A stretch of 64,000 nucleotides of DNA, taken from Gammaproteobacteria bacterium. GTDB taxonomy: Bacteria > Pseudomonadota > Gammaproteobacteria > Pseudomonadales > Azotimanducaceae. The DNA lies in assembly GCA_028821125.1 (NCBI GenBank), contig JAPPHD010000193.1, forward strand, positions 19,418 through 83,417, written 5' to 3'. Shown piece after piece: positions 18,416 through 27,152 of the stretch; the first letter of the stretch is position 1, and every line of letters begins with the position of its first letter. A program made the translations under genes and the position numbers. The notes under the pieces are model-generated. The model had not been told where the DNA came from. It worked only from the letters and a program-made list of their open reading frames with translations, and searched no databases.

Positions 18416-19219
18416 CTACAACCTTCCGCGGTCAAGCAACCGATGGATGGCATGGGCGACGCCCGCATCGGTGTTTGCCTTGCTGACGTATGTGGCTTCC
18501 GACTTTGTGGCGGCATCTGCCTGTCCCATGGCCACGGAAGCGCCGGCAATCCTGAACATGTCCACGTCGTTCTCGGCATCGCCGAAGGCAACGACGGCCG
18601 CGGGGTCGAGGCCCATGTGCCCGCAGGCCGCGGCGAGCGCCGCTCCCTTGGTGGCGTCCCTGGCCGTGAGGGTGAGAATGATCTTGCCGGTGGGGCCGAT
18701 CGAATCCAGGACGGCGACCGTATCAAGGAATGGCTCCTTCAGTTCCCGGCGTATGCGATCGCCGCAACGGCTGCCCTGAATCGCCGCAATTCTGGGGACG
18801 TTGCCGTTCATCAGCCGCAACCGGTCCGTCCAGCGCATCTCCGGTGTGAGGAACCGTTGCTCGGGCCGCCCGTCCATCTTGATTTCCACATCGTCATTGA
18901 GCGTCACCGTGGCAATGCACCGTTCTTCGTTGCAGATCGCATAGAGCGCTTCGACGAACTCGCCGGGCAGCCGCCGGTCGAATACATCGCCGGGCAGCGC
19001 CGGGTCGAAGACCTGGGCGCCGGAACAGGCGATCACCGGCCCGTCGATGCCGAGCCGCTTGCCGAGCTCGAGCGCGTAATGCGACCAGCGGGCGGTCGCG
19101 ATGATGACCTCAAGGCCCGCATCGAGCGCCGCTCGCACGGCATTCACGTTGGCCTCGGGGATTTCGTCCCCCACCAGCAGGGTGCCGTCCAGATCGATGG
19201 CCAGTGCCGAATACCGCAT
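18416..19219 (-). CDS. Cof-type HAD-superfamily phosphatase
   Basis: This 267-residue HAD hydrolase has motif I DLDGTLL at the N-terminus, the conserved threonine in IATARW, a C2B cap, and motif IV GDAENDVDMFRIAG near the end. Cof-like enzymes dephosphorylate sugar phosphates, flavin or pyridoxal phosphates; the substrate here is unknown. I chose ATG 19219 (MRYSALAIDLDG), since the upstream 79 residues of the ORF are Pro/Arg-rich and unconserved in appearance. It is followed closely by the His-rich TonB receptor gene. Confidence 0.9.
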   Translation of the reverse strand: MRYSALAIDLDGTLLVGDEIPEANVNAVRAALDAGLEVIIATARWSHYALELGKRLGIDGPVIACSGAQVFDPALPGDVFDRRLPGEFVEALYAICNEERCIATVTLNDDVEIKMDGRPEQRFLTPEMRWTDRLRLMNGNVPRIAAIQGSRCGDRIRRELKEPFLDTVAVLDSIGPTGKIILTLTARDATKGAALAAACGHMGLDPAAVVAFGDAENDVDMFRIAGASVAMGQADAATKSEATYVSKANTDAGVAHAIHRLLDRGRL

Positions 19220-19296
19220 GTTTGGTACGCCTGTTGAGTGAAAAGAGGTATCGCCCCACGCGGGGACGGGGTTCGAATCAAAGAGAACGCATCCGG

Positions 19297-19770
19297 CTAT
19301 CGGGTCTTGTCGCCGCCGGCGCCCGGCTCGTCGACTTCCTCGGCCGAGGGCTCCCGGCGCGCCTGAGGCGGCGCTGGGGGCCAGCGCGGCTCGAACGCCT
19401 GGCGCATCAGGTTGAGCGGGTTCATCTCGTTGAGTTGCCGGAGATGGGTGCGCCACTGGTCCTGGTGATCCAGGAAAGCCACGATGCTCTGCTCGATATA
19501 GCGCCCCACCACGCCGCCCATGCGGTCTCCGTAGAACCGGATGAGGTTTTCAATCACCCGGTTCGTCAGCACGCTCTCGTGCCCCTCCGACTCCTGCTCG
19601 GCCAGGATCTGCAGCAGCACCGAGCGGGTGATGTCCCCGCCGTCTTTTCCGTCGACCACATGGATGCTTTCCCCGGCGACGATCAGCTTGCGCACGTCGT
19701 CGATGGTGACGTAGCGGCTCTCCGTGGTGTTGTAGAGGCGCCGGTTGGGGTATTTCTTGAGCTCGTGCAT
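19297..19770 (-). CDS. phaR: Polyhydroxyalkanoate synthesis repressor PhaR
   Basis: This 157-residue protein begins at ATG 19770 with the hallmark KKYPNRRLYNTTESRYVTIDDV, the PHB/PHA accumulation regulator DNA-binding domain. The PHB_acc domain follows, from LLQILAEQE through FYGDRMGG. In known systems PhaR binds both DNA and nascent PHA granules and represses the phasin and its own gene. The phaC stop and phaR start are separated by one base, indicating translational coupling. A TGC-rich region upstream of the phasin gene at 24.2 kb is its probable target. The tail from about residue 125 is Pro-rich and disordered. Confidence 0.95.
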   Translation of the reverse strand: MHELKKYPNRRLYNTTESRYVTIDDVRKLIVAGESIHVVDGKDGGDITRSVLLQILAEQESEGHESVLTNRVIENLIRFYGDRMGGVVGRYIEQSIVAFLDHQDQWRTHLRQLNEMNPLNLMRQAFEPRWPPAPPQARREPSAEEVDEPGAGGDKTR

Positions 19771-19771
19771 G

Positions 19772-21448
19772 TTACTTTTCCCGGACGTACAACCCAGGGG
19801 CGTCTTCCAGCGGCGGGTAGGTGCGGCTGCCCAGGGTATCCGGCGCATCCTTCTCTTCCGAGTGGCCCTTGAGCCAGGAAACCCAGTGCTCGCGCCAGTT
19901 TCCGGCCGTCTCCTCGCTCGCCCGCCACCATTCGTCCGGGTCCGCCGGCAGCGTCTCGCCCTGCCAGTAGCGCAGGTGACGGTTGTCGGGCCGCGCGCTG
20001 ATGGTCTGCGTGTGATTCTGGCTGGTCAGGATGAACTCCACGCCCTCGCCGAACAGGTGCGCGCTGCGGTAGCAGGCCTTCCACGGCGTGATGTGGTCCG
20101 TGGAGCCGGCCATGATGTATACAGGGTAGCCGATGGAGGATAGGTCCACCCGGTGCCCGAGCAGTTCGAGCGTACCCGCGGCCAGTGAGTTCTTGTGCCC
20201 AAGGTCGATCAGGTCGCACTGCAGTTCCGCCGGCACCCGGGTGTAGTCCATCGACCAGAACAGCAGCGGGTGGGCGAGCGGGTCTTCGCCCCGGAAATAG
20301 TTGCTGCGCATGAAGCTGAAGACGCTCTCGTCGAGCCGCAGCATGGCGAACATCTCCAGGATGTCCCGCTCGGTCATGCCGCCCTGGGCGCGCACGCGCT
20401 GTTTCTGGGCGACGACCGACTCATCGGTAACGAAGAGTGTGAAACCGCTGTCGCCGGGCTCGTTGTCGAGAATCGACACGAACAGCGACAGCGAGTTGAC
20501 CCAGTCGTCGCCCCGGGCCCGCAGCACGCCCGCCGCCGCCGCCGCGACGATGCCGCCCGCGCAGAGGCCGATCAGGTCGAGCCTGCGCTGGCGGGTGATG
20601 CTCCTGGTGATGCGAACCGCCTCGATCACCCCCTCGGTATAGGTGGCCAGCGACCAGTGGGCGTCCTCCCGAGAGGGATTCTTCCAGCTCATGGCGAAAA
20701 CCTGAATGCCGCTTTCCACCAACTGCCTGAACAGGCTGCGGCCCGGCGTGAGGTCGCCGAGATAGAAGCGGTTCACCTGGCTGAACACGTAGAGCAGCGG
20801 CTTCCTGTGCACCTTCGGCGTGGTGGGCCCGTACTGGATCAGCTCGAACAGCTCATTCCTGAAAACCACCTTTCCGGGTGTCGCCGCAACGTCCTTGCCC
20901 AGCTCGAAGGCATTGCGGTCCGCCACGGCGGGATAACCGTGGTTGTGCTGAAGGTCGTCGAAGAACTGCTGGATGCCCTTGACCACGCTGGCGCCGTTGG
21001 TCTCCACTGCCTTCTTGATGGCTTCCGGGGTGAAGGGGTTGTTGACGGGCGCGTAGATGTCCTTGGCCGCGTCCATGAGAAACTCGGCCCGCTGCCGGTC
21101 TATGCCTTCCAGGCCCGACTTCTCAAGCCATTCGTCCAGCGTGCGGGTCCAGGCCACGTACGACTGCCGTACCCGCTTGAAGACCGGGTTGTCTTCCCAG
21201 GCCGGGTCCGCGAAGCGCGCGTCGGCGGGCATTTCCATCGACCGGTTGCCGAACCAGATATCGGCAAGCTCCGCCTGGTAGCGCATCTGGGTTTCCAGCG
21301 CCAGGGCCGGATGGGCGCCCAGGTCCCTGGAAAACCGCTGCCAGGCCTCTGCGATGCTCTGGCGGTCGGCGCCCCACATGCTGCCGAGCGAGAGGCCTTC
21401 CATGGCCTCGCCGCCCTTCTCCGCATCGTTCCCGGCTGTATCCGCCAT
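19772..21448 (-). CDS. phaC: Class I poly(3-hydroxyalkanoate) synthase
   Basis: This 558-residue polymerase links 3-hydroxyacyl-CoA monomers into PHA at the granule surface. The lipase-like box with cysteine nucleophile is LIGLCAGG (C296). The Asp/His parts are seen in GSTDHITPW and SQNHTQTI. The N-terminal FADPAWEDNPVFKRVRQSYVAW matches PhaC N-domains, and the length is usual for class I (single-subunit) enzymes. It is immediately followed by phaR. No phaA/phaB pair is adjacent, although thiolases and an SDR occur in the window, so monomer supply is probably encoded elsewhere. Confidence 0.96.
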   Translation of the reverse strand: MADTAGNDAEKGGEAMEGLSLGSMWGADRQSIAEAWQRFSRDLGAHPALALETQMRYQAELADIWFGNRSMEMPADARFADPAWEDNPVFKRVRQSYVAWTRTLDEWLEKSGLEGIDRQRAEFLMDAAKDIYAPVNNPFTPEAIKKAVETNGASVVKGIQQFFDDLQHNHGYPAVADRNAFELGKDVAATPGKVVFRNELFELIQYGPTTPKVHRKPLLYVFSQVNRFYLGDLTPGRSLFRQLVESGIQVFAMSWKNPSREDAHWSLATYTEGVIEAVRITRSITRQRRLDLIGLCAGGIVAAAAAGVLRARGDDWVNSLSLFVSILDNEPGDSGFTLFVTDESVVAQKQRVRAQGGMTERDILEMFAMLRLDESVFSFMRSNYFRGEDPLAHPLLFWSMDYTRVPAELQCDLIDLGHKNSLAAGTLELLGHRVDLSSIGYPVYIMAGSTDHITPWKACYRSAHLFGEGVEFILTSQNHTQTISARPDNRHLRYWQGETLPADPDEWWRASEETAGNWREHWVSWLKGHSEEKDAPDTLGSRTYPPLEDAPGLYVREK

Positions 21449-21693
21449 GGCAAACTCCTGACTCGTTCCGGCGCGTCGATGTTTGTAGTGTTAGCAGGCC
21501 CTAATGTAAACTCCGCGCCGCTCACGGCTCCGGGCCATTGTATATCGGGGCAAGCGGGCTCTTGATTTGCCCGCCTGCACCGGTTGAGCGGGATGCCTTG
21601 CCGGCGCCCGCCGCCGGGCAAGAAAACGCCGCCGGTTGCAACAGGTTGGCCGGACGCCGCCGGGCACCATGATACTGTATCTGCCACCGGAAT

Positions 21694-21712
21694 TTGCCGG
21701 CACAGCCGGCAA
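21694..21712 (+). other. Hairpin in the leader of the 80-residue protein gene
   Basis: TTGCCGG and CCGGCAA form a perfect seven-base stem with a CACAG loop, ending 15 bases before the ATG at 21728. It may affect translation. The rest of the 280-base gap between phaC and this gene shows nothing I can name apart from GC-rich palindromic pieces. Confidence 0.4.
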
Positions 21713-21727
21713 GGCGATGACATTGCC

Positions 21728-21970
21728 ATGAAAATCAATGTGGAAGTGGACCTCACGCCCGAAGAACTGCGCCGCTTCATGGGCCTGCCGGATGTCGGCG
21801 CGGTGCAGAAGGAACTGCTGGAACAGTTCACCCAGCGTGTTTCCGCTTCGAACGAGCAGCGGGACGAGTTTCTGCGCAACCTGTTGACCGGCGCCGTGGC
21901 GCCCTGGCAGAGCTTTTTCAACATGGTTTCGGGAACCGGCGCGCAAACGGGCGACCCGCGCGACAAGTAA
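21728..21970 (+). CDS. Small DUF6489-like protein
   Basis: This 80-residue protein reads MKINVEVDLTPEELRRFMGLPDVGAVQKELLEQF. It has a short beta-like start and an acidic helix with the LTPEE-RRFMGLPDV pattern I associate with DUF6489, an uncharacterised family often found near PHA genes. There is no signal peptide or membrane segment. I placed the start at ATG 21728; the ORF track's 48 additional residues look like untranslated leader. It is divergent from phaC and 127 bases upstream of the WS/DGAT gene. Function unknown; a granule-related role is only suggested by position. Confidence 0.72.
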   Translation: MKINVEVDLTPEELRRFMGLPDVGAVQKELLEQFTQRVSASNEQRDEFLRNLLTGAVAPWQSFFNMVSGTGAQTGDPRDK

Positions 21971-22097
21971 GGGCCGCCGCAAACGGGACAAGATCAGCGA
22001 ACCGGCGCCGCCCGCCAGCGGCGTCCGCAACGGAAATGACTCTGGAAAACACCGACAACCCGCCGGGCGAAACCATCCGGGGTTCCGGGGAACCAAC

Positions 22098-23543
22098 ATG
22101 CGGCTGAGCACACAAGACGCATCGTTTCTGTATTCGGAGACGGCCAGCGGCCCCATGAACGGTGCCGGGCTCGCCATTATCGAGGGCGAACTGCCGTTCG
22201 AGACGGTTTATCGTCACATCGAATCGCGCCTGCACCTGGTGCCGCGCTACCGCCAGCGCCTGGCAATCGTGCCGTTCAATCTCGCCCACCCCAAATGGGT
22301 GGACGACCCGGATTTCGACCTCGCCAATCACGTCAGGCGCCACCGGCTGCCGGAAGGCTCTACCCTCGACGACGCCATCCGCGCCGCGCTCGACCTGAAC
22401 GAGCCGCTGCTGCCGCGCGACAAGCCGCTGTGGCGGATGACCGTCATCGAGGGCGTCAAGAACCGCACCATACTCGCCCAGACCGGCCACCACGCCATGG
22501 TCGACGGCGCCTCCGGCGTCGACATCACGCTGGCGTTGTTCGACCTGCAGAAAGACGCGCCAAAGCCGGAACCGCAAGCCTGGCATCCCAAGCCCCTGCC
22601 CTCCCCGGTGGAACTCGCCACCGAAGCGGCGCTGGAGACGGTGCACACCCTGTCCGGGGAGAACCCGTTCAAGGCCGTGAACTTCACGTCCGAGCGCGCT
22701 GAAATGCTGCGGCGCGCCACCGAGTCGATGACGCGGTTCCTGGCGGAGCCGGTACTGACCGCACCCTGGAACGCAGCGCCCGTCGGGCCGAAGCGTCATT
22801 TCCTGTGGCGCAAGTACCCGTTCGGGGATTTCCGCCGCATTCGTTCCACACTAGGCGGCACCATCAACGACGTGGTGCTCGCAGCGGTGACCGAAGCCGC
22901 CGCCCGCTACCTGCAGGCCCACGGCGAACGCACGTCGGGCCAGCACCTGCGCATCATGTGCCCCGTGAACGTACGCACCGAAGACGAGCGCGGCGCGCTC
23001 GGCAACCGCGTCTCCGCCATTTTCCCGATGTTCGACGCCGAACCCACGGGCATGGCGGAGCGGCTGCACAAGGTGCGCTGGGAAACCGAGCAGATCAAGA
23101 ACAACCGCGAAGCACAGGCCATGCAGTTGATGATGGAGTCCGCGCCGGCCATGCCGCCGGTGGCGATGGCGCCGGCCCTCCTGGTGGGAACCCCGTGGGA
23201 CCCGACCGCAATCAGCGCCAACTTCCCCCTTCCGGTTCCGCCCGCGTTCGGTCCGCGCCCCCCCATGTTCGGCTTCAACTTCACCTGCACGAACGTCCCC
23301 GGCGTACAGACCGCGCAGTACCTGGCCGGCCACCGCATACTCGACAACCTGGCTTTCCTGATGCTGGGCGGCACCCTGGGCTATGGGATCGTGATTACAA
23401 GCTACAACCAGAACATCTATTTCAATTTCATCTGCGACCGCCGCCTGATGCCCGACCTGGAACTCATGGCGAACGGCGTCGACGATGCTTTCGAAGAACT
23501 ACTGGCCGCAGCGGAGCAGGCGAAATCCGCAGCGGCGAACTGA
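22098..23543 (+). CDS. Wax ester synthase/diacylglycerol acyltransferase (WS/DGAT)
   Basis: This 481-residue acyltransferase makes wax esters or triacylglycerol from acyl-CoA and a fatty alcohol or diacylglycerol. The catalytic HHxxxDG motif is present as TGHHAMVDGASG (about residue 132). The C-terminal WES domain includes FNFTCTNVPGVQ, close to the family's NVPGP pattern. Length is normal. It directly precedes a GNAT gene (17 bases apart) and a phasin, and is near phaC, so storage-lipid functions are clustered. Which ester is made cannot be told. Confidence 0.94.
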   Translation: MRLSTQDASFLYSETASGPMNGAGLAIIEGELPFETVYRHIESRLHLVPRYRQRLAIVPFNLAHPKWVDDPDFDLANHVRRHRLPEGSTLDDAIRAALDLNEPLLPRDKPLWRMTVIEGVKNRTILAQTGHHAMVDGASGVDITLALFDLQKDAPKPEPQAWHPKPLPSPVELATEAALETVHTLSGENPFKAVNFTSERAEMLRRATESMTRFLAEPVLTAPWNAAPVGPKRHFLWRKYPFGDFRRIRSTLGGTINDVVLAAVTEAAARYLQAHGERTSGQHLRIMCPVNVRTEDERGALGNRVSAIFPMFDAEPTGMAERLHKVRWETEQIKNNREAQAMQLMMESAPAMPPVAMAPALLVGTPWDPTAISANFPLPVPPAFGPRPPMFGFNFTCTNVPGVQTAQYLAGHRILDNLAFLMLGGTLGYGIVITSYNQNIYFNFICDRRLMPDLELMANGVDDAFEELLAAAEQAKSAAAN

Positions 23544-23560
23544 CCGGCCACGGAGGATTC

Positions 23561-24163
23561 ATGTCCGCCACACCAAGCATTGAAAGCAACCTCGAGAAGT
23601 ATCCTCAGGAGGTCACGCTCACCGACGGGCGCAGGCTGGAACTGCGCGTGGTCGGCGCTGTCGACCGAAACGCCATCCTCGCATTCGCCCGCGGCCTCCC
23701 CGAGCAGGACCTTTTGTTCCTGCGCGTGGACATCACCAGGCCGGAGGCTGTCGACCGCTGGCTGGCCAACGTCGCCGAGGGCACCACGCTGTCACTCATC
23801 GCCTACGACGGCGACGCGATGGCCGGCTATGCAACGGTCGACCGCACCCCCGCCCGCTGGACGCGGCGCGTGGGCGAACTGCGGCTCACGGTGGGGCAGG
23901 GCTATCGCGGCCAGGGCCTCGGCCGCCACCTGAGCGCCAGGATCTTCGACATCGCCAAGAGCCTCGGCCTGAAGAAGCTGACGGCCAACATGACGCCCGA
24001 CCAGCGCGGTGCCCAGGCCGCCTTCCAGCGCCTGGGGTTCGTCGCCGAAGCCCTCCTCACCGATTTCGTGGAAGACCGCGACGGCGGCCTGCACGACCTG
24101 GTCATGATGACTTTCGATGTGGACGGCCTCACCGACCACGCCGACCACTCGCTGCAGCTCTAG
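23561..24163 (+). CDS. GNAT-family N-acetyltransferase
   Basis: This 200-residue protein carries the acetyl-CoA-binding motif VGQGYRGQGLGRHL in the second half, followed by LKKLTANMTPDQRGAQAAFQRLGF, typical of GNAT enzymes. The ATG at 23561 has GGAGG seven bases upstream; the longer ORF in the track runs through the WS/DGAT gene in another frame. It probably shares a transcript with WS/DGAT. The acceptor substrate is unknown. The stop is followed by the regulatory region of the phasin gene. Confidence 0.9.
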   Translation: MSATPSIESNLEKYPQEVTLTDGRRLELRVVGAVDRNAILAFARGLPEQDLLFLRVDITRPEAVDRWLANVAEGTTLSLIAYDGDAMAGYATVDRTPARWTRRVGELRLTVGQGYRGQGLGRHLSARIFDIAKSLGLKKLTANMTPDQRGAQAAFQRLGFVAEALLTDFVEDRDGGLHDLVMMTFDVDGLTDHADHSLQL

Positions 24164-24200
24164 CCAGCGGCAAAAGTCCCGTGTGGCAATATGCGGTTTT

Positions 24201-24294
24201 TGCTGCATTGCATTAGCCGCCAACAACCACCAAAAAAAGGGTTGCATCAAAAAATGCTGTGGTGCACAATAAGCATGTTTGTGCGATGCAGCAT
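24201..24294 (+). promoter_or_regulatory. Phasin promoter with clustered TGC/GCA boxes (probable PhaR operators)
   Basis: An AT-rich gap holds TTGCAT (24242-24247), a 17-base spacer and CACAAT (24265-24270), a plausible sigma-70 promoter. Three TGC-rich boxes surround it: TGCTGCATTGCA (24201-24212), TGCTGTGGTGCA (24255-24266) and TGCGATGCAGCA (about 24282-24293). PhaR of other proteobacteria is known to bind TGC-rich sites at phasin promoters, and phaR is 4.5 kb away. The operator assignment is inference from that knowledge. Confidence 0.65.
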
Positions 24295-24334
24295 ATTCGC
24301 TGACTCGATCGTTGAAACCAATTGGAGGTAGTCG

Positions 24335-24700
24335 ATGAACCCGTTCGAACAACAGATGAAGCTTGGCCGCGACCTGATGGAACTCAACTCCGAATGGTTC
24401 AGGAAGCTCGCCGAGCTCGATTCCAGGAATTTCAGCGACTACGTTCAGTTCAATCAGGATTTCGCCGGCAGGCTGCCGGAGGTGAAGGACATCCAGAGTT
24501 TCGTCGACCTGCAGCGCGAGTACGGCGAGCAGCTCTGGAACGGCGCCCAGGAAGCCCTGAAAACCCGCGGCGAGATGCTGCGTGACGCGTTCAACGCCAA
24601 CAACGAAACGATTCGCAGGGCGTTCAGCCCCGAAGCCGAAGAGAAGCCGCAGGCGAAGCGCAGCTCCACGAAGAGCGGCGCCACCAAAGCGGCCGCCTGA
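24335..24700 (+). CDS. Phasin-family granule-associated protein
   Basis: This 121-residue protein is mainly amphipathic helix, with the phasin-type beginning MNPFEQQMKLGRDLMELNSEWFRKL and a Lys/Ala-rich tail (KRSSTKSGATKAAA) like those that bind DNA or polymer. Phasins coat PHA granules and set their size. It has a TGGAGGTAG ribosome site, its own promoter with probable PhaR sites, and a strong terminator. No signal peptide or catalytic motif is present. Confidence 0.88.
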   Translation: MNPFEQQMKLGRDLMELNSEWFRKLAELDSRNFSDYVQFNQDFAGRLPEVKDIQSFVDLQREYGEQLWNGAQEALKTRGEMLRDAFNANNETIRRAFSPEAEEKPQAKRSSTKSGATKAAA

Positions 24701-24733
24701 GCGGTAACGAATACCGCTTTCCTCCCCCTGCAC

Positions 24734-24783
24734 ACCCCCGGTAACCGGAGACTTTCTCCAGTTACCGGGGGTTGTGCTTTTCT
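24734..24783. terminator. Strong terminator between convergent phasin and GYD-PlsC genes
   Basis: ACCCCCGGTAAC pairs with GTTACCGGGGGT, with an inner GGAGA/TCTCC stem and a CTT loop, so nearly the whole element folds. A T-rich run (TTGTGCTTTTCT) follows on the plus strand. It ends 26 bases before the convergent stop and could serve both genes. Confidence 0.85.
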
Positions 24784-24808
24784 GGTGCCTGAGAGTTGGG
24801 GCGGCGTC

Positions 24809-25795
24809 CTATAAGCTCTGCTGCGAGAGAATCCGCTCGTGAAAGTCGCGCATGGTTGAATACAGGCGTTCGGTGGCTTCCGGTACCGTCGTATTCGCCT
24901 CGAACCGGATGGGGTCGAGCACGTGTGCCGCGACCGGGCCCGGCCGGGCCTCCCGCGTACCCGGCGGCCGGATCTGCTTGAGGCCTTCCAGATAGACCGG
25001 CACCACCGGCACCTTCGCTTCCAACGCCAGGATGGAGACGCCGTGCTTGAAGTGCGACAGGTGGCGGCCCCGTGCGCGCGTTCCCTCCGGGAACAGCATC
25101 AGGTTGGCTCCGTGCTTCAACAGCCATTTCGGATACTCCAGGGTGCGCGACCCGCCGCCCCGCTGGATCGGATACAGACCCGTAACCAGCGACTGGTACC
25201 ACGGCTGAAGCGTGACCTCCTTGCGCCCCTTCAGGAACCAGCGGTCGGCCGCCGCCCCGAAGAAGAGATTCGTACGGACCCGTAGCGGAATCGCCTTCAT
25301 CAGGCAGTACTGGTCGAAGTGGCTCTGGTGATTGGCGACAACGATGCACGGCCCCCGGACCGAGGCGAACTTCCTCTTGCCGTAGACCCGGTGTTCCGTG
25401 AAGAAGCGCCAGGCCCAGCGCTGATAGACGTAGGGATACATCAGGAAACGCACGAAGCGCGCCCACCACCGAACCTGCCAGCGATGCGGCCCTGCCGTCT
25501 GCGCCGACTGGCTCAACAGGCGCTGGAAGAGCGGCAGATCGATTGCGGGCAGAATCTCCGTATCCGCCGTGGTACTCATTTCCTGAGCGAGAGTGGCCCG
25601 ATACGCCTTGAAGTTGTCCGGCGCGTCGACAATGAAGCACTGGTCCCACTCGCCGAGCAGGCGATACCCCAACAGGATCTTCGCTTCCCAGCGCTCCAGG
25701 GCCTCGCAAACGCGCTCGACGGCACTCGGGCCTTCCGACTTCATGGCCTTCAGGCCCTCGGAGTGGTCCCGCATGAGAAGAACGTAGACGCCCAA
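24809..25795 (-). CDS. Fusion protein: GYD domain plus PlsC-type acyltransferase
   Basis: This 328-residue protein has two parts. Residues 1 to about 95 resemble the GYD protein encoded just upstream: VYVLLMRDHSEGLKAMK, then LLGYRLLGEWDQCFIVDAPDN. The remainder is a lysophospholipid acyltransferase domain, with ANHQSHFD (the HX4D motif, about 190) and LFPEGTRARG, as in 1-acyl-glycerol-3-phosphate acyltransferases. It should acylate a lysolipid at the inner membrane. The start is a TTG, three bases after the GYD stop codon, so translation is probably coupled. The GYD fusion is unusual. Confidence 0.85.
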   Translation of the reverse strand: MGVYVLLMRDHSEGLKAMKSEGPSAVERVCEALERWEAKILLGYRLLGEWDQCFIVDAPDNFKAYRATLAQEMSTTADTEILPAIDLPLFQRLLSQSAQTAGPHRWQVRWWARFVRFLMYPYVYQRWAWRFFTEHRVYGKRKFASVRGPCIVVANHQSHFDQYCLMKAIPLRVRTNLFFGAAADRWFLKGRKEVTLQPWYQSLVTGLYPIQRGGGSRTLEYPKWLLKHGANLMLFPEGTRARGRHLSHFKHGVSILALEAKVPVVPVYLEGLKQIRPPGTREARPGPVAAHVLDPIRFEANTTVPEATERLYSTMRDFHERILSQQSL

Positions 25796-25798
25796 GGT

Positions 25799-26107
25799 TC
25801 AGCCCGCGCTTTCCGGGGCGGCACTTTTCATCATGTTGATGTATCTCTCGATGGCAATGGCCGGAAACGTCGTGATCTTGATGGTTCCCCGGGAGCCGAG
25901 TTCCATGGAAAGGCGCGCCATGATCTCGTTCGAGGGCGCCTCGATCACGTTGACGAAGTCGTAGCCGCCGAGCACGGCGTACTGGGCGACCACCCGTGCC
26001 CCCATGCTCTCGACTTCCTTGTTGACCTCGCCCAGGCGCTCCGGGCGTTCCTTGAGCGTCTTGCGCCCTTCGTCGGTGAGCGTGCTGAGCATGATGTATG
26101 TCGCCAT
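25799..26107 (-). CDS. Stand-alone GYD-domain protein
   Basis: This 102-residue protein begins MATYIMLSTLTDEGRKTLKERPERLGEV and includes LGGYDFVNVIEAP, the motif that names the GYD family, with a ferredoxin-like beta-alpha-beta pattern. Functions of GYD proteins are largely unknown. ATG 26107 has a consensus AAGGAGG site. It lies immediately upstream of the GYD-PlsC gene, and the two likely arose by duplication of the GYD part. They may interact, which is inference. Confidence 0.88.
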   Translation of the reverse strand: MATYIMLSTLTDEGRKTLKERPERLGEVNKEVESMGARVVAQYAVLGGYDFVNVIEAPSNEIMARLSMELGSRGTIKITTFPAIAIERYINMMKSAAPESAG

Positions 26108-26342
26108 CGATTGCCTCCTTGTCCATTTTCCCCGGTTGATCCGGCAAGGCCGTCGCGGATCGGCGCAGGTCACTGCCGGCCCGTGAATCTGCGCTCGCGC
26201 GGCTCGGACCGACGCAATCACGCGCCGGCAGTTTGCTCCGCGCACACTCGGGGCGCAACCGATCCCCGGGAAGGGGACCGATTGTTGACCCTGAAAAAAC
26301 ACTGCGCCACACTTCGTGACGAAACGATGACGGGAGTTCAGG

Positions 26343-27152
26343 TTGTCACTGTCCATCGATCCGGCACCGCGGCAACGCCCCGGGCCATCGAGAGCGAACT
26401 TCGCCTGGGAGTTGCCACGCCTCTTCTTTGAGGTCGGCCGTCTCGGGTTGTCCTGGCCGCTCCTGCTCCAGCAGGCGGCGCGCGGCGACGGGCATCCGGT
26501 CATGGTGCTTCCCGGCTTCCTCGGGGGCGATGATTCCACCCTCATCCTGCGCAGGTTTCTCACGCAACTCGGATACGTCTCCCTCCCCTGGCTGCACGGC
26601 CGCAACACCGGCAACCCGGCCCAGCTCGACGGGGCAATACTGCGTTTCTACCGGGCCCATCACGCCAGCGGTGAGAAGATCTCCCTGATCGGGCAGAGCC
26701 TTGGCGGCATCTATGCACGGGAGATCGCCCGCAAGTTTCCCGATGCGGTGCGCAGCGTCATCACCCTGGGCAGCCCGTTCGCGGCCCGGGACGACGCCCA
26801 CACCGCGAATCCGCTGGTAACCCGGCTGTTCGAGTCGCTGTCCGGCCACACGGCGGAGGAGATGCGCCGGCGCATGGGCAACCGCGACGACCCCAGGGCG
26901 CCCCTGGGCATTCCAAGCACCTCGGTCTACAGCAGGAGCGACGGCGTGGCGTACTGGAAGGCCTGCGTAGACCGGGAGAGCGAACTGTCGGAAAACGTCG
27001 AGGTACGGGCCAGCCACACCGGCATGGCCATGAACCCGGATGTGCTGTACGTGATCGCCGACCGCCTGGCGCAGGACGCGCAAGCCTGGCAACCGTTCGA
27101 CCGCACCCGGGGTTGCCGGCCCTGGGCCTATCCGGAGCCTTTCAGCGCCTAG
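26343..27152 (+). CDS. Alpha/beta hydrolase (lipase/esterase-like)
   Basis: This 269-residue hydrolase has VMVLPGFLGGDDST (oxyanion region) and the nucleophile elbow IGQSLGGIYA (serine about 121). RASHTGMAMNP near residue 225 probably gives the catalytic histidine. There is no signal peptide. The ORF begins at TTG 26343 behind GGGAG. The substrate is unknown; location beside phospholipid acyltransferase genes suggests a lipid. The TAG stop is part of the CTAG end of the palindromic element at 27149-27193. Confidence 0.86.
   Translation: MSLSIDPAPRQRPGPSRANFAWELPRLFFEVGRLGLSWPLLLQQAARGDGHPVMVLPGFLGGDDSTLILRRFLTQLGYVSLPWLHGRNTGNPAQLDGAILRFYRAHHASGEKISLIGQSLGGIYAREIARKFPDAVRSVITLGSPFAARDDAHTANPLVTRLFESLSGHTAEEMRRRMGNRDDPRAPLGIPSTSVYSRSDGVAYWKACVDRESELSENVEVRASHTGMAMNPDVLYVIADRLAQDAQAWQPFDRTRGCRPWAYPEPFSA

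Follow-up and report, generated by a model that had tools for sequence, protein, structure and literature searches.

The window analysed here, a stretch of 64,000 nucleotides from a gammaproteobacterium of the family Azotimanducaceae, encodes a protein, GYD-PlsC, in which an N-terminal GYD domain is fused to a PlsC-type acyltransferase, next to a gene for a lone GYD protein and amid genes for storage lipids. From our point of view, GYD-PlsC could be an accessory lysophosphatidic acid (LPA) acyltransferase for neutral-lipid storage that carries a GYD module, possibly acting with the lone GYD protein, and we put the probability of this reading as a whole at about 0.5.

The fusion protein and its predicted fold

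The GYD-PlsC gene (328 residues; 24809..25795, minus strand) starts with a TTG at 25795 and its stop ends at 24809, and the gene for the lone GYD protein (102 residues, ATG start; 25799..26107, minus strand) ends in a TGA at 25801-25799. The TTG thus lies three bases past this stop, and both the coordinates and the spacing given by the sequence-only reading proved exact. In an alignment the TTG lines up with ATG, GTG or TTG starts of the relatives, which together with the short gaps between the genes makes the proposed start credible; across the relatives the gap ranges from -4 (an ATGA overlap) to +23 bases, with a single exception at +66. Read-through of the lone GYD stop into a GYD-GYD-PlsC protein would be in frame in the window, but is in frame in only 12 of 24 relatives and was rejected since the frame between the two genes varies.

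The lone GYD protein matches the Pfam family GYD (PF08734) with 97.6 bits (E 4.3e-28; curated cut-off 31.4), and residues 4-87 of the fusion reach 36.7 bits against the same cut-off (E 4.4e-9). BLASTP finds 25% identity between the two proteins over the GYD region (E 3e-9), and all 23 orthologues scanned matched both the GYD and the acyltransferase family, GYD matches being counted at E <= 0.01. The earlier claim of a GYD domain fused to PlsC beside a lone GYD gene is hence borne out by Pfam, by the predicted fold and by the orthologues. The GYD motif itself is kept in the lone protein; in the fused domain its place is taken by G-x-(mostly W/Y/F/H)-D, where G48 never varies among the orthologues and D51 hardly does; overall, the fused and the lone GYD have strongly diverged and conserve different residues.

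Behind the fused GYD domain (residues 1-95; 25511..25795, minus strand), for which Pfam, predicted fold and Foldseek searches agree, follows a conserved linker (residues 96-135; 25391..25510, minus strand) with a T-x-GP-x-x-WQ motif and a long aromatic and basic helix (110-131) that might contact the membrane. Its invariant residues among the orthologues are T100, G102, P103, W106, Q107, W111 and R116. The PlsC-type catalytic domain (residues 136-269; 24989..25390, minus strand; Pfam E 4.5e-19) carries NHxSHxD (H156, D161), PIxRGG and FPEGTR motifs, and N155, H156, D161, F235, P236, E237, G238, T239 and R240 are invariant. The PF01553 match with the HX4D and FPEGTR motifs places the protein among the PlsC/AGPAT acyltransferases, with a score below the cut-off of the NCBIfam AGP acyltransferase family TIGR00530 (66.7 vs 102.95 bits).

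An AlphaFold2 model of GYD-PlsC, built on a 75-row alignment, has a mean pLDDT of 88 and a pTM of 0.72. Residues 1-95 are predicted to fold as beta-alpha-alpha-beta-beta-alpha-beta-alpha (with a block pLDDT of 75-92 as far as residue 90), and in a Foldseek search against the PDB this part matches 2djw (TM 0.71 by target), 1mwq, 2e1a, 2cvi, 2zbc and 5ixu, which we take, going beyond the PDB titles, to be stand-alone RAM (Lrp-type) or dimeric alpha/beta-barrel proteins. The model thus supports a ferredoxin-like, RAM-like alpha/beta fold, and the suggestion that residues 1-95 resemble the GYD fold stands, since Pfam match, model and Foldseek agree. A search among the sequences of solved structures gave no relevant GYD match. 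In a model of the tandem GYD-GYD form that read-through would yield, both halves show an equal order of elements, their relative placement being of low confidence (pTM 0.44).

The C-terminal part of the model finds the PlsC structure 5kym as its best solved match (E 3.4e-9), besides PatA and GPAT1. One could imagine that the acceptor is not LPA, but for instance a different lysolipid or a molecule connected with PHA metabolism, given the score well below the AGP acyltransferase cut-off, the several acceptors that PF01553 spans and the additional matches to PatA and GPAT1. We consider this quite unlikely, as PlsC is the best solved structure and the pathway setting described below fits LPA acylation.

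Signs of coupled translation

The lone GYD gene is preceded by an AAGGAGG Shine-Dalgarno sequence (26114..26120, minus strand) with a predicted pairing energy to the anti-Shine-Dalgarno sequence of -11.4 kcal/mol, compared with -3.8 kcal/mol at the GYD-PlsC start. In each of the 24 pairs the lone GYD gene has the stronger predicted pairing (mean -9.4 vs -5.1 kcal/mol), the p value of 2e-5 being indicative only since the rows are related. At L014, the one locus without a lone GYD gene, the GYD-PlsC start has a strong site of its own (-8.4 kcal/mol), and because this natural exception carries its own ribosome-binding site, translational coupling of the pair is supported. The coupling proposed by the sequence-only reading is accordingly backed, as far as signals in the DNA can tell, by the junction spacing, the stronger upstream site in 24/24 pairs and the L014 exception.

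A strong terminator-like hairpin on both strands (24728..24786) separates the convergent phasin and GYD-PlsC genes, with -38.7 kcal/mol on the plus strand (z -8.9), where it shows a terminator pattern, and -43 kcal/mol on the minus strand (z -7.9). No Rfam element was found in the region.

Distribution of the gene pair

The relatives searched numbered 58, and 37 of the genomes belong to the family of the window, its own included. Whole-length GYD-PlsC orthologues (49-79% identity) are present in 22 of these 37, and further relatives occur in MAGs of Gammaproteobacteria or Pseudomonadales. A lone GYD orthologue (64-87% identical) lies directly upstream in 24 of the 25 non-redundant loci, the window among them; at L014 alone it is missing, none was found elsewhere in that genome, and the fused GYD is still recognisable. 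High-scoring lone GYD orthologues turned up only in the fusion-bearing genomes of the family, the others having lower-scoring GYD proteins or none. The lone GYD is better conserved than either part of the fusion (mean pairwise identity 0.76; fused GYD 0.56, PlsC part 0.62), and once the variation of the PlsC part is taken into account, the two GYD sequences vary together only weakly (partial rank correlation 0.28).

These data bear on the question whether the two GYD domains work together at all. It could be that the fused GYD is only a module for homodimerisation or for membrane or granule targeting, that the lone GYD does something else and that the two genes adjoin because they are expressed together. 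The divergence of the two domains, the L014 locus with its fused GYD and no lone partner, and the tandem model without a confident interface are in line with this possibility, which we nevertheless regard as rather unlikely because adjacency and co-occurrence are otherwise complete (24 of 25 loci) and come with signs of coupled translation.

Profile searches that covered 392 genomes from the order and 369 from the class gave no fused GYD beyond the family; the matches there are lone GYD proteins in frames of 106-140 residues. In the phylum, 40 of 399 genomes have a GYD match, and the loci examined, several of them with long frames, contain no fused or nearby relative of the PlsC part of GYD-PlsC. 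The long frames were considered as candidate GYD fusions in other Pseudomonadota and rejected, the GYD domain there ending open frames that extend upstream by chance. The sampling outside and around the family comprised about 1,100 genomes in all, and GYD-PlsC may represent a new domain architecture, which InterPro architectures may already contain without comment.

Four genomes of the family (G023, G020, G017 and G026) also encode PlsC paralogues without GYD (L087-L090); since these share the GP-x-x-WQ linker, the PlsC subfamily exists without GYD as well. The paralogue of G017 adjoins a WS/DGAT gene. In the genome of the window there are six further PF01553 matches, one in a stand-alone frame of 252 residues, so that GYD-PlsC looks accessory, and this speaks against an essential role in housekeeping.

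Origin of the fused GYD domain

The sequence-only reading had proposed duplication and fusion. The fusion itself is well founded (Pfam, fold, orthologues), while a duplication of the neighbouring gene is no more than possible: the fused and the lone GYDs form two separate clades (support 100/99 and 97/93) in a tree that has only 96 columns and long branches, and the data neither back nor reject a group exclusive to the two (p-AU 0.133). That the fused domain arose from a tandem copy of the lone GYD gene would agree with the neighbouring position, the same fold and the 25% identity, and the p-AU value leaves it unrejected. It appears somewhat doubtful to us, however, since the lone clade groups with the unlinked GYDs L103 and L154 at 99/94 and the fused clade falls outside, although the short alignment and the long branches weaken this argument.

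A storage-lipid setting

The surroundings of the pair are a locus for PHA, wax-ester and triacylglycerol storage, which the sequence-only reading had missed. Convergent with GYD-PlsC lies a phasin gene (24335..24700, plus strand; Phasin_2 E 1e-6), the product being a granule-surface protein, and beyond it a WS/DGAT gene (wax ester synthase / diacylglycerol acyltransferase; 22098..23543, plus strand; Pfam 6e-46) with 311.8 bits to TIGR02946 (cut-off 309.95). Farther away are genes for a PhaC polyhydroxyalkanoate synthase (19772..21448, minus strand; PhaC_N E 2.4e-51), for a PhaR-type regulator of PHA accumulation (19297..19770, minus strand), with a presumed start inside the ORF 19297-19848, and for a Cof-like HAD-type phosphatase (18416..19219, minus strand; Hydrolase_3 E 1.7e-40; start presumed), a candidate phosphatidate phosphatase. 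Over the tblastn match, PhaR is 68% identical to a protein of a relative with a PHB_acc_N match of E 4e-26. An alpha/beta hydrolase gene (26343..27152, plus strand; Abhydrolase_1 E 4e-6) diverges from the lone GYD gene. Between PhaC and WS/DGAT lies a gene for a small DUF6489 protein (21584-21970), which recurs in several related loci and is possibly a further granule-associated protein, and between WS/DGAT and phasin a GNAT acetyltransferase gene (23561-24160) that is conserved in loci of equal gene order.

Several of these genes recur near GYD-PlsC in 24 loci, some of which lie on contigs too short to show all genes: the HAD phosphatase in 20, an S33-type hydrolase, presumably monoacylglycerol-lipase-like, in 17, the alpha/beta hydrolase in 16, phasin in 15, PhaR in 14, PhaC in 11 and WS/DGAT likewise in 11 (the window and 10 further, within about 6 kb).

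The gene order of the window from 18416 to 26107 (PhaC, DUF6489, WS/DGAT, GNAT, phasin) matches that of G021 and of the MAG loci L034 and L035 better than that of its own genus, and its GYD-PlsC is closest to that of G021 (79%, vs 71-74% in its own genus), a hint that the cluster has been transferred or rearranged.

WS/DGAT is present in all 22 fusion-bearing genomes of the family and in one of the 15 without the fusion (Fisher p 2.5e-9, uncorrected for relatedness). The best rpoB tree implies 9 changes of the trait, and the full tree gives 9 contrasts; the well-supported branches hold only 3 independent contrasts, nearly always agreeing and never opposing, which is too few for p 0.05. PhaC is nearly as well matched to the fusion, with only partial PhaC matches in G026, G032 and G035. 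In the single-contig genome of G001, which belongs to the same genus, GYD-PlsC, lone GYD, WS/DGAT and PhaC are all absent, as would fit a loss of storage-lipid function as a whole. The assembly of the window (G000) holds two rpoB-like genes outside the window, on contigs C130 (L158) and C96 (L194). The copy on C96 clusters with the genus; that on C130 is only 57-64% identical to the rpoB of the listed relatives and is a second rpoB that has diverged, or else stems from contamination.

Context and co-distribution thus point to neutral-lipid storage, and the "phospholipid synthesis" named by the sequence-only reading is probably the wrong pathway label. PlsC chemistry does yield phosphatidic acid, a phospholipid precursor, and in 13 of the 24 loci, some on short contigs, no WS/DGAT gene is nearby, as one would expect if GYD-PlsC served general phospholipid remodelling or membrane homeostasis and its storage-lipid neighbourhood were incidental. 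The other PlsC-type proteins of the genome, the lack of GYD-PlsC in 15 of 37 family genomes, its tracking of WS/DGAT and the recurrence of phasin, PhaC, PhaR, HAD and lipase-like neighbours, however, give such a role a low probability.

Possible function and relation to known systems

The conservation of the pair in genomes that make storage fat suggests a dedicated storage enzyme rather than altered membrane synthesis. On the preferred reading, GYD-PlsC would act as an accessory LPA acyltransferase whose phosphatidic acid would feed triacylglycerol synthesis by the neighbouring WS/DGAT and/or supply the granule surface, and not bulk membrane growth. Its N-terminal GYD, as a RAM-like alpha/beta domain, would dimerise and probably bind a small ligand of lipid metabolism, and the lone GYD, co-translated and probably produced in surplus, would most likely pair with GYD-PlsC as a regulatory or assembly subunit. 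The presence of WS/DGAT near GYD-PlsC in fewer than half of the 24 loci counts against this explanation, as do the small number of well-supported contrasts, the low confidence of the tandem GYD model and the weak covariation of lone and fused GYD, and no ligand pocket was identified in the GYD domain. A more specific version, in which a heteromeric alpha/beta-barrel sensor, built from lone GYD and GYD-PlsC together, turns on a dedicated PlsC for the synthesis of triacylglycerol, wax ester or PHA granules, seems unlikely to us.

With PlsC of T. maritima (5KYM), GYD-PlsC has the catalytic fold and the HX4D and FPEGTR motifs in common; it differs by the N-terminal GYD, the GP-x-x-WQ linker, the coupled lone GYD gene and the score below the NCBIfam cut-off. 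In published WS/DGAT clusters, genes for PlsC and HAD proteins or for an AGPAT-HAD fusion occur (PMC4850399, PMC10351704). The latter, which rhodococci and other bacteria encode in WS/DGAT operons (PMC4850399, PMC10351704), is likewise a PlsC with an added domain, and clustering with WS/DGAT and a HAD hydrolase is common to both systems; in GYD-PlsC, however, the added domain is GYD, whereas the HAD hydrolase is encoded by a separate gene. RAM-type domains (the Lrp/AsnC C-terminal domain, 2ZBC, 2E1A; TTHA0845, 2DJW) resemble GYD in their ferredoxin-like fold and in occurring both as small stand-alone proteins and in fusions. GYD, in contrast, belongs to another sequence family (PF08734) and has no DNA-binding domain, the likeness being one of predicted fold; from such a fold, a regulatory role of GYD is plausible. 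The lone GYD protein is an ordinary member of PF08734 and is set apart by its link to an acyltransferase gene, seen in one family only.

In the literature searched, no function was found for any GYD protein; the only paper found under the name GYD domain lists such a protein among those induced in stationary phase in Burkholderia (PMC12322963). Both bacteria and archaea have GYD proteins. The fusion to a well-understood enzyme, together with a coupled partner and storage-lipid surroundings, offers a testable handle on their role. If the heteromeric sensor did exist, it would provide the first function for the GYD family, and GYD would count as an allosteric or assembly domain of a new class. 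For the Gammaproteobacteria, the gene pair may mark a point of control where the paths to membrane and to storage lipids diverge.
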